From the NCBI RefSeq assembly GCF_000737325.1, contig NZ_CP011125.1, forward strand, positions 9,995,945 through 10,059,944: a stretch of 64,000 nucleotides of DNA, read 5' to 3'. This document shows positions 16,872 through 20,056 of this stretch, piece by piece. How positions within the stretch are numbered: the stretch's first letter is position 1; every line of letters starts with the position of its first letter. The translations under genes and the position numbers were made by a program. The stretch comes from Sandaracinus amylolyticus. GTDB taxonomy: Bacteria; Myxococcota_A; Polyangia; Polyangiales; Sandaracinaceae. A model generated the notes under the pieces. The model searched no databases. It was not told the DNA's origin and worked only from the letters and a program-made list of their open reading frames with translations.

Positions 16872-17746
16872 TGCGCGAGGCGCCACAATCGCGGCGCATG
16901 CGAGAAGGCGAAGCGAGCCGAACCGCCCTGGGCGTCGCCCTGCTGCGCGCGATCGCGACCAGCGCGGATGCGCTGCACGACGTGCGCGATCCGATCGCGG
17001 AGTCGCTGCTCCCACCTTCGCTCGCGCTCGCGCCGCACGTGCTCGCGCGCGCGCCCACCGTCGCGCGCGTGCTCTCGGGCGGCCTGCTCGATCACGTCGC
17101 GCTGCGCACCGCCGCGATCGATCGCGCGCTCCGCGACCTCTTCACCGAAGAGCCCGCGCGGACGCAGCTCGTGATCCTCGGCGCCGGGCTCGACGCGCGC
17201 GCATGGCGCCTGGCCGAGCTGTCGCGCGCGGTGGTCTTCGAGGTCGACGTCGTCGCGAGCCAGCGCATCAAGACGCGCAAGCTCCAGCACGTGAAGGCCC
17301 TCGCGCGCGAGGTGCGCTTCGTCGAGGTCGACTTCGCGCGCGGCGAGCTCGCGGGAGAGCTCGAAGATCATCGCCACGATGCGCGCGCGCCCACGGTGTG
17401 GCTCTGGGAGGGCGTCACGCCGTACCTCGATCGCGCCGCGATCGACGAGACGCTGCGCACGATCGAGGCGCGCTCGGCGCCCGGCTCGGTGCTCCTCGTC
17501 ACGTATCTCACGCCCGAGCACGTGCGCGTCCCCGCGCTGCTCCTGCCCGCGGTGAAGCGCGCGTTCGCGATGCTCGGCGAGCCGCTCGTCGGCGCGATGC
17601 GAACCCCCGAGATGCACTCGCTGCTGCGCGCGCACGGCTTCGCGATCGACGACGACTCCGGCTCGTACGACTGGGCGCGCGACACGCGCTCGAAGAAGCC
17701 GGTGCTCGAGATCACCGAGCGACTGATCCGCGCCACGCGCGAGTGA
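16871..17746 (+). CDS. SAM-dependent methyltransferase, leucine carboxyl methyltransferase (LCM) family
   Basis: A 291-residue class I methyltransferase of the LCM/PPM type that occurs widely in mycobacteria and myxobacteria. The SAM-binding glycine loop is QLVILGAGLDARAWRL. The acidic residue ending strand 2 is in VVFEVDV. The WLWEGVTPYLD segment matches the family's motif after strand 4. The substrate is unknown; many members act on natural products. The start overlaps the MFS stop; an alternative ATG at 16898 would remove nine residues. Its last 35 bp overlap the convergent hydrolase gene. Confidence 0.85.
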   Translation: MREAPQSRRMREGEASRTALGVALLRAIATSADALHDVRDPIAESLLPPSLALAPHVLARAPTVARVLSGGLLDHVALRTAAIDRALRDLFTEEPARTQLVILGAGLDARAWRLAELSRAVVFEVDVVASQRIKTRKLQHVKALAREVRFVEVDFARGELAGELEDHRHDARAPTVWLWEGVTPYLDRAAIDETLRTIEARSAPGSVLLVTYLTPEHVRVPALLLPAVKRAFAMLGEPLVGAMRTPEMHSLLRAHGFAIDDDSGSYDWARDTRSKKPVLEITERLIRATRE

Positions 17747-18680
17747 GCTGCTCGAGGAAGCGCTCGGGGAACGCGAACGCCGCGAGGTGTCCCGCGCCCT
17801 CGATCGTCGCGAACGCCTTGTACGGCGCGTCGACGTCGTCGACGAAGCGCGCGGCGAGCGCGTGCGGGGTCACGATGTCGTGCTCGCCCTGGAGCACGAT
17901 CACCGGCACCTCGAAGCACACCCCGCCCGCGCGCGCGTCGAACGTCGCGACCTCGGCGTGGAGTCGACCGAGCGAGAAGCGCAGGCCCCGCGCGATGTCG
18001 ACGAGATCGAGCCAGCCGTGCTGCGGCGACGAGAGCATCGCAGGCAGCGTCACGTCGCGGATCATGTCGGGCGCACCGGTGCGCGCGCCCGCGATGATGC
18101 GGTTGCGCCGATCGAAGTCGTCGCGCGTCCATCGCGCAGGGTCGGCGCCGATGCGCTCGAGCTCGCGCACCCCACGCCGATCCCCGCTCGCGCGCAGCGC
18201 GTCGATCGCGAGCCGGTGACCGAGCCCATCGGGGTCGCCGACGTTCTGATCGACACCGACGTACGCGTGGAAGAGCTCGGGCCGCCGCCGCACCATCTGC
18301 AGCGCGATCGCGCTCCCCACCGAGCTGCCGAGCACGATCACCTTCTCGTGCCCGAGCCGCGCTCGCAGGTGCATCGCGAGCTCGATGCCGTCCTCGGCGA
18401 GCCGCGCGAGCGAGAGCTCGCCGCGCGCGCCGTGACGCCCGAACGTCCTGCCGGCGCCGCGCTGATCCCAGTGCACCACGGTGAAGCAGCGCTCCCACGC
18501 GCGCAGGCGCGACGTGAAGATCGACGTCACCGCGCCCGGCCCGCCGTGCACGATCACGAGCACCGGGTTGCGCACGTCGTCGCCGCGCACCGAGATCCAC
18601 TGATCGATGCCGCCGAGCGACACGAAGCCCGCGAGATCGATCACGAACCGATCACGGAGCGCCCGGTACGCTGTACGCAT
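17712..18680 (-). CDS. Alpha/beta hydrolase, proline-iminopeptidase-like
   Basis: A 322-residue alpha/beta hydrolase. HGGPG (residues 45-49) forms the oxyanion hole, as in prolyl aminopeptidases. WDQRGAG follows. The nucleophile elbow is GSSVGS with Ser120. The acid is in VLQGEHD and the base in EGAGHLAAF. Lipid or ester hydrolysis is possible; the substrate is unknown. The start at 18680 is preferred, with an in-frame ATG 39 bp upstream as the alternative. The start codon sits inside an inverted repeat (GCATGT-N5-ACATGC), which suggests repression by a DNA-binding protein. Confidence 0.87.
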   Translation of the reverse strand: MRTAYRALRDRFVIDLAGFVSLGGIDQWISVRGDDVRNPVLVIVHGGPGAVTSIFTSRLRAWERCFTVVHWDQRGAGRTFGRHGARGELSLARLAEDGIELAMHLRARLGHEKVIVLGSSVGSAIALQMVRRRPELFHAYVGVDQNVGDPDGLGHRLAIDALRASGDRRGVRELERIGADPARWTRDDFDRRNRIIAGARTGAPDMIRDVTLPAMLSSPQHGWLDLVDIARGLRFSLGRLHAEVATFDARAGGVCFEVPVIVLQGEHDIVTPHALAARFVDDVDAPYKAFATIEGAGHLAAFAFPERFLEQLTRAWRGSVAR

Positions 18681-18693
18681 GTCGCGAACATGC
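18677..18693. promoter_or_regulatory. Candidate operator over the hydrolase start
   Basis: GCATGT-CGCGA-ACATGC is a perfect 6-bp inverted repeat overlapping the preferred start codon of the alpha/beta hydrolase gene. It lies in the short divergent region shared with the GntR-TetR fusion gene. The assignment to that regulator is an inference. Confidence 0.35.
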
Positions 18694-18735
18694 GCGAGAA
18701 TCGCAGACCAGCAACGCAACCGGCGATCACTGTGA

Positions 18736-18759
18736 TAGAACAGCGCACGCTCTGTACTA
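18736..18759. promoter_or_regulatory. Candidate operator of the GntR-TetR fusion regulator
   Basis: TAGAACAG-N8-CTGTACTA is an inverted repeat with 7 of 8 matching positions, ending 7 bp before the ATG of the regulator gene. Its position near the start and in the divergent region fits autoregulation. Confidence 0.4.
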
Positions 18760-18766
18760 GGTCGTG

Positions 18767-20056
18767 ATGGCCTCCGCTCGCATCGCCGCGCACTTCCGAG
18801 AGCAGATCCGATCGGGCGCGCTGCGACCCGGCGAGCGCCTCCCTCCGGTGCGCGAGCTCGCGCGCCGATGGCGCGTCGCGCTCGCGACGGCGAGCCGTGC
18901 GATCGCCGTTCTCAAGCAGGAGGGGCTCGTGCGCGCCGAGCCGCGCGTCGGCACGATCGTCGCCGCGCGATCCCGCGCGCGCACCGACCCCGAGCTCACG
19001 CCGGAGAGCATCGTGCGCGCCGCGATCACGATCGCCGACGTCGAGGGCCTCGACGCGGTCTCGATGCGCAGCGTCGCGGGTGCGCTCGGCGCGCCCGCGA
19101 TGTCGCTCTATCGCCACGTGCCGAGCAAGGACGAGCTCCTGCTCGCGATGATCGACGCGTGCTTCGCCGAGCTGCCCGAGCACGCGCCGAGCGGCGCGTG
19201 GCGCGCCGATCTCGGCGCAGCGATGCGCGCACAGTGGAAGCTCCATCGCGCGCATCCGTGGCTCGTGCGCGCGCTCTCGATCACCCGCCCCCAGATGCTC
19301 CCGAACGGCATGCGCTTCGCGGAGTCGGTGCTGCGCCCGCTCGACGGGCTCGGCCTCGATCCCGGCGAGATGATGCGCACCTACCTCGTGCTCATGAGCT
19401 TCGTGCGCGGCGTCGCGATCGGAGTGGACGCCGAGCTCGAGGCCGAGGCGACGAGCGGCATGACGAACGACGAGTGGATCGCCCAGCGCGAGCCCTCGTT
19501 CGCCGCAGCGCTCGAGGGAAGCTCGTACCCGACGCTCGCGCGCATGATCGCGGCGCCGCGCCTCGACGTCGAGCTCGACGCTGTCTTCGAGCTCGGCCTC
19601 GCGCGCCTGCTCGACGGTATCGACGCGATGCTCCGCGCGCCGTCGCGCGTCATGCTCGCGCCCGTCATGGGCAGTCGCGGCAGGCCGTATCGAACGTTCG
19701 TGATCGACGGCATCGAGGTGCTCGTCGGGCGCGCCGACGAGGACAACGATCACCTCACGTTCCACGTCGCGAAGAAGCGCGACCTCTGGCTCCACGTCGG
19801 CGGCGGGACGCCGGGCAGTCACGTCGTGGTGCGCAGCCCCGAGCGCGGCGATCCGCCCGACGCCGTCGTCGAGCGCGCTGCGCAGCTCGCCGCGTGGTAC
19901 TCGAAGGCGCGCGGCGCGCCGCGCGTCGAGGTGCACGTGTGCCGCGTGTCCGACGTCTCGAAGCCGAAGGGCGCGCCCGCGGGCAAGGTCGAGATCAAGC
20001 GCTTCTCGAAGCGCAAGGTGACGCCGACGCGCGGCGACGCAGAGGGCGACGATTGA
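18767..20056 (+). CDS. Three-domain fusion: GntR-type HTH, TetR-like domain, NFACT-R domain
   Basis: A 429-residue protein in one uninterrupted frame (numbering here counts the GTG at 18764 as 1). Residues 2-70 are a GntR winged helix, with RSGALRPGERLPPVRELA and the second-helix pattern TASRAIAVLKQEGLV. Residues 78-290 are a TetR-type HTH (AITIADVEGLDAVSMRSVAG, then SLYRHVPSKDELL) plus ligand-binding helices. Residues 308-421 are an NFACT-R/DUF814 domain: VGRADEDNDHLTFHVAKKRD, LWLHVGGGTPGSHVV, AAWYSKARGAP, and KPKGAPAGKVEI. The first two together are known; joining them to the RNA/ribosome-quality-control-type NFACT-R is odd. In-frame ATGs at 19652 and 19667 could give a separate NFACT-R protein. 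Confidence 0.85.
   Translation: MASARIAAHFREQIRSGALRPGERLPPVRELARRWRVALATASRAIAVLKQEGLVRAEPRVGTIVAARSRARTDPELTPESIVRAAITIADVEGLDAVSMRSVAGALGAPAMSLYRHVPSKDELLLAMIDACFAELPEHAPSGAWRADLGAAMRAQWKLHRAHPWLVRALSITRPQMLPNGMRFAESVLRPLDGLGLDPGEMMRTYLVLMSFVRGVAIGVDAELEAEATSGMTNDEWIAQREPSFAAALEGSSYPTLARMIAAPRLDVELDAVFELGLARLLDGIDAMLRAPSRVMLAPVMGSRGRPYRTFVIDGIEVLVGRADEDNDHLTFHVAKKRDLWLHVGGGTPGSHVVVRSPERGDPPDAVVERAAQLAAWYSKARGAPRVEVHVCRVSDVSKPKGAPAGKVEIKRFSKRKVTPTRGDAEGDD

Follow-up and report, generated by a model that had tools for sequence, protein, structure and literature searches.

A gene fusion joining a GntR-TetR regulator to an NFACT-R protein in Sandaracinus amylolyticus

The locus and its domains

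The window analyzed here is a stretch of 64,000 nucleotides of Sandaracinus amylolyticus (contig NZ_CP011125.1, positions 9,995,945 to 10,059,944), and feature coordinates are given as positions within it. On its forward strand, an unbroken frame from 18767 to 20056 (the end coordinate takes in the stop codon) encodes 429 amino acids in which a GntR winged helix, a TetR-type regulator, and an NFACT-R domain follow one another. The features considered below are as follows.

17712 to 18680, minus strand: divergent alpha/beta-hydrolase gene, a possible target (Abhydrolase_1, E = 4.8e-15; Hydrolase_4, E = 2.6e-16)
18730 to 18743, no strand assigned: putative operator copy 1, CTGTGATAGAACAG, a degenerate palindrome (11/14)
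18752 to 18765, no strand assigned: putative operator copy 2, CTGTACTAGGTCGT, with one good half, adjoining the start codon
18767 to 20056, plus strand: fusion gene, 429 amino acids, GntR winged helix-turn-helix, TetR, NFACT-R (open reading frame, Pfam, kept in the second genome G008)
18773 to 18961, plus strand: GntR winged helix, residues 3 to 65 (PF00392, E = 2.3e-14)
19010 to 19150, plus strand: TetR_N helix-turn-helix, residues 82 to 128 (PF00440, E = 1.7e-7)
19184 to 19630, plus strand: TetR_C_1 ligand-binding and dimerization domain, residues 140 to 288 (PF02909, E = 4.2e-22; predicted fold closest to SimR, 3zql)
19637 to 19687, plus strand: junction and linker, residues 291 to 307 (ends of relatives at about 290 to 310; low pLDDT)
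19667 to 20053, plus strand: apparent one-time stand-alone NFACT-R protein, residues 301 to 429 (PF05670, alignment, tree, start codons)

The original prediction had read GntR, TetR, and NFACT-R domains in a single frame, and profile searches bore it out. All four Pfam domains exceed their curated cutoffs (GntR, 53.2 bits versus 27; TetR_N, 31.3 bits versus 24; TetR_C_1, 79 bits versus 21), and the NFACT-R_1 match on which the prediction hinged was found at residues 314 to 411 (PF05670, E = 3.8e-10). The Pfam search returned no GntR-type effector domain (FCD, UTRA, aminotransferase, and the like) in the protein, which carries TetR_N and TetR_C_1 instead; NFACT-N, HhH, and the coiled-coil/M domain were likewise not detected, leaving NFACT-R as the sole representative of the RqcH/NEMF set. 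The fused NFACT-R domain is basic (pI 9.6). Translation could start at the ATG at 18767 or at the GTG at 18764, where the mechanically called frame opens. An antisense open frame of 431 amino acids (18641 to 19936, minus strand) covers most of the fusion gene; it is typical of high-GC codon structure and has no gene-like signs.

The fusion gene is flanked by the alpha/beta-hydrolase gene, whose ATG lies at 18680 and which is separated from it by an intergenic region of 86 bp, and by a gene for an NAD(P)-binding protein. The divergent hydrolase also adjoins the fusion in G008. In another genome (G002, locus L016), a TetR-only regulator, truncated where the contig stops, has a 45%-identical alpha/beta-hydrolase as its divergent neighbor, so the pairing of hydrolase and regulator may predate the fusion.

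Origin of the two halves

A class-level search with residues 1 to 292 recovered full-length GntR-TetR relatives without NFACT-R in nine other Myxococcota genomes (43 to 51% identity), and these relatives end at about residues 290 to 310. They are annotated as "TetR/AcrR family transcriptional regulator C-terminal domain-containing protein" or "GntR family." Thirty-five records of actinobacterial plasmids also hold such a regulator at a coverage of at least 80%, and in the annotated examples that we read, its neighbor is a gene for an MFS transporter or for an FAD monooxygenase. Judged by these sequences, the GntR-TetR protein of about 300 amino acids is a widespread regulator type of Myxococcota and Actinobacteria and no novel pairing.

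The NFACT-R half has relatives of its own. Unfused members of its family, about 127 amino acids long, occur in 45 of the genomes searched, and at the 28 stand-alone loci that we inspected, a start codon coincides with Met301 or is offset from it by a few residues at most. In a tree of only 129 columns, in which the inner forks are weak, the fused domain is nested in a stand-alone Polyangiales clade with 100/100 support, as the sister of L063 and apart from RqcH. The stand-alone family is common in Polyangiales, often in genomes that also have RqcH; no conserved operon or neighborhood surrounds it in 11 loci, and our literature search found no described role for stand-alone bacterial NFACT-R proteins. 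The genome carrying the fusion (one contig, 10,327,335 bases) contains one further NFACT-R domain (L021, C1:3205072-3205383), in an RqcH-like frame of 582 amino acids with NFACT_N and NFACT-R; no second NFACT-R of the stand-alone type was found there. Ribosome quality control in the host is therefore probably served by this RqcH-like gene.

Since the regulator relatives end at about residues 290 to 310 and the stand-alone proteins begin at the position of Met301, these comparisons indicate that the event linked a regulator gene, at its end, with a stand-alone NFACT-R gene, at its start; the old start codon of the latter survives, on the evidence of the alignment, as internal Met301 (ATG at 19667). 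The suggestion of a natural fusion of two genes thus holds, both halves existing as unfused relatives. Of the claim of an unprecedented triple combination, the joining to NFACT-R stands and the novelty of the GntR-TetR part falls, which leaves one fusion event and a new domain combination made from two known kinds of protein. Separate genes, with a stop or frameshift between residues 290 and 305, had been named as what would speak against a fusion; the relatives are indeed separate, but in each of the two fusion-bearing genomes the frame runs through without a break. No intermediate with a regulator adjoining a stand-alone NFACT-R gene was seen, and two genomes (G160 and G084) carry both genes on different contigs. 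Three longer frames that might be other fusions (L067, 438 amino acids; L163, 503 amino acids; L171, 487 amino acids) look like GC-rich read-back; each has a start codon at the NFACT-R domain, and none is matched by the regulator half. Our literature search found no paper on a GntR-TetR-NFACT-R fusion.

Conservation and selection

In G008, a second large genome of the same genus, the fusion protein is full length and without a stop, at about 90% identity, and lies between the same neighbor genes as in the window; the identical frame rules out an assembly or frameshift artifact. G009, a further genome of the genus in 820 contigs, yielded no fusion and no match to NFACT-R, and the searches turned up fused relatives in no other genus. 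The fusion is thus real and narrowly distributed, being carried by two genomes, from two species, of a single soil-dwelling genus.

Pairwise Nei-Gojobori counts between the window and G008, made with our own script and from these two sequences only, gave a dN/dS of 0.23 for the whole gene, with 0.36 for GntR, 0.12 for TetR_N, 0.33 for TetR_C, and 0.32 for the junction (residues 288 to 312, few sites). The NFACT-R core (residues 313 to 412, 100 codons) has no nonsynonymous change against 14 synonymous ones. The preserved frame and this substitution pattern together exclude a chance frame. The two sequences point to purifying selection on both halves, strongest on NFACT-R; with only two genomes carrying the fusion, it may act on each part rather than on the joining itself.

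A palindrome upstream of GntR-TetR genes

A palindrome with the consensus [CG]TGYACTAGTRCAS lies directly 5' of the start codon in GntR-TetR genes of both Myxococcota and Actinobacteria. Its copies read CTGTACTAGTACAG (L133 and L134), CTGTGCTAGTACAG (L131 and L132), and GTGTACTAGAACAC (L127 to L129), and the actinobacterial ones read GTGCACTAGTACAG, GTGTACTAGTACGG, GTGCACTAGTGCGG, and GTGCACTAGTGCAT; palindrome-bearing regulator loci span L127 to L134 and L144 to L147, and the region upstream of L126 has none. Matches of at least 13/14 to [CG]TGYACTAGTRCAS, no more than 32 nt from the start codon, are present at 13 of 15 regulator genes. As the consensus was derived from the same genes that it scores, this score is descriptive, and the real evidence is the fixed position and the occurrence in two phyla. 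Control stretches of the same locus, some of which overlap the site itself, reach 13/14 in 1 to 6%. The CTAG-centered GT...AC palindrome resembles the operators of HutC/DasR-type GntR proteins, and we found no paper that describes it as an operator. It is a likely shared operator of GntR-TetR genes, presumably autoregulatory, and its retention from Myxococcota to Actinobacteria makes it a predicted operator for a large group of such regulators.

Upstream of the fusion, G008 has CTGTACTAGGACAG at the position of copy 2 and scores 13/14; the window reaches 11/14, with a half-site in addition. A relaxed form, CTGTRMTAGNACAG, has its single exact fit in the whole genome at 18730; this speaks for an autorepressor of local reach, with its own gene and possibly the divergent hydrolase gene as targets. 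A regulon search with CTGTACTAGTACAG, allowing up to two mismatches across the genome, returned no match.

Proposed working of the fusion protein

An AlphaFold2 model from a 21-row alignment (mean pLDDT, 88; pTM, 0.62) has folded modules whose mutual arrangement it does not fix, and its weak stretches are the linker (residues 291 to 307) and the C terminus. Foldseek placed SimR first for the TetR part (3zql, 35% identity, TM-score of 0.83 by target length), followed by ActR and PamR2; all three are repressors that bind antibiotics.

With confidence slightly better than even, we hypothesize that the gene encodes an autoregulated, ligand-sensing GntR-TetR repressor that carries NFACT-R on a flexible linker in one polypeptide. 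It would have arisen when the stop codon of the regulator was lost, allowing read-through into a stand-alone NFACT-R gene lying directly downstream. The CTAG-centered palindromes in the 86-bp region would be bound by the GntR winged helix, perhaps together with the TetR helix-turn-helix, and the protein would thereby repress its own gene; it might control the divergent alpha/beta-hydrolase by the same route. Autoregulation through the palindrome is predicted and is supported by the comparison among relatives, although the degenerate operator of the window (11/14 plus a half-site, versus 13/14 in G008) speaks against an autorepressor. Repression would be lifted once the TetR_C_1 pocket is occupied by a bulky small molecule, presumably antibiotic-like because SimR and ActR, which it resembles, are antibiotic-binding repressors. 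NFACT-R would be tethered to the TetR dimer at its C-terminal end; in the TetR fold the last helix (residues 270 to 290) contributes to the dimer interface, so each dimer would carry a pair of NFACT-R domains. There the domain would keep the job of the stand-alone family, namely, binding of nucleic acid, probably RNA, at a protein level now set by the autorepressor. NFACT-R is otherwise known mainly from ribosome quality control, and the fusion offers a hint of the "Rosetta stone" type, supplying a testable context (ligand and promoter) for the stand-alone proteins.

Alternative readings

The fusion might instead be a neutral read-through without functional meaning, in which only the NFACT-R half is needed and the regulator is decaying, or the reverse. 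Such a history would suit the far stronger constraint on NFACT-R than on the regulator half, the degenerate operator in the window, and the restriction to one genus. However, TetR_N, TetR_C, and GntR in the regulator half all still show purifying selection, and G008 retains a 13/14 operator, so we regard this history as unlikely.

Also unlikely is the production of free NFACT-R beside the full fusion, whether by initiation at Met301 (or Met296) or through cleavage of the linker. The in-frame ATGs that had been pointed out at 19652 (Met296) and 19667 (Met301) are both present inside the linker, which is predicted to be flexible, and Met301, which G008 also has, coincides exactly with the point where the stand-alone proteins begin. 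However, nothing like a Shine-Dalgarno sequence precedes either ATG in the window or in G008: the anti-Shine-Dalgarno duplex energy is +0.7 kcal/mol at both codons in both genomes, compared with −1.5 to −9.5 kcal/mol at stand-alone NFACT-R starts and a weak −3.6 at the first start of the fusion gene (+0.8 for the GTG). Starts independent of Shine-Dalgarno sequences exist; still, separate initiation at the internal ATGs is unlikely, and the earlier proposal of free NFACT-R from them is disfavored.

NFACT-R could instead serve as a third module in contact with DNA, making binding to the operator stronger or broader. Foldseek matched the NFACT-R part of the model to RqcH/FBPS (8s1u, 5h3w, 7aqc) and to the NFACT-R-type CCDC25 alone (7eoe) and with DNA (7eof); the fused domain is basic, as noted, and extra affinity could offset the degenerate operator. 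Yet CCDC25 is a distant animal protein known for its binding to DNA outside the cell, and the stand-alone relatives have no link to regulators and no conserved neighborhood, which leaves this role improbable.

Equally improbable is a switch between transcription and translation, in which binding of ligand or of RNA/50S would decide between the operator and the ribosome or tRNA and couple a toxic compound to ribosome stress. One protein would then sense a small molecule and touch RNA or the 50S subunit through NFACT-R, so that one ligand event altered both promoter and translation, a proposition to which we give equally little weight. The fused domain does align with the NFACT-R of RqcH solved on the 50S subunit (7aqc, 7as8), and NFACT-R, poorly resolved in complexes of RqcH, is placed close to the A-site finger there, while the tRNA contacts are made via NFACT-N and HhH (PMC8012679). 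However, an RqcH-like gene is already present elsewhere in the genome; the fused domain comes from a separate family without the NFACT-N, HhH, and coiled-coil domains that touch tRNA and the stalk base; and no translation genes flank the fusion. The originally suggested link between a small ligand and translation stress is speculative, the domain name being its only basis.

Comparison with known systems

The nearest counterparts of the regulator half of our proposed autorepressor are the GntR-TetR_C_1 dual helix-turn-helix regulators, which share its domain order, with the identity given above extending over residues 3 to 290, and have upstream a palindrome of the type that the window holds in degenerate form but stop at about 290 to 310 without NFACT-R. 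SimR (the simocyclinone repressor), ActR, and PamR2 have the TetR fold in common with it, whereas they lack both a GntR N terminus of this kind and NFACT-R. For the other half, the stand-alone Polyangiales proteins (e.g., that of Minicystis rosea, L064) are 60 to 73% identical across the entire NFACT-R part, and their start position matches Met301; unlike the fusion, they are separate genes unattached to a regulator. RqcH, Rqc2, and NEMF have a homologous NFACT-R with the D-x-W-x-H and PGSHV segments found in the fusion, but they also have NFACT-N, HhH, and coiled-coil middle domains that it lacks, and they fall in a separate clade. CCDC25 resembles the fusion in having an NFACT-R-type domain (DUF814) outside the RqcH architecture, with a DNA-bound structure, and differs in being eukaryotic, with a coiled coil and no regulator domains.
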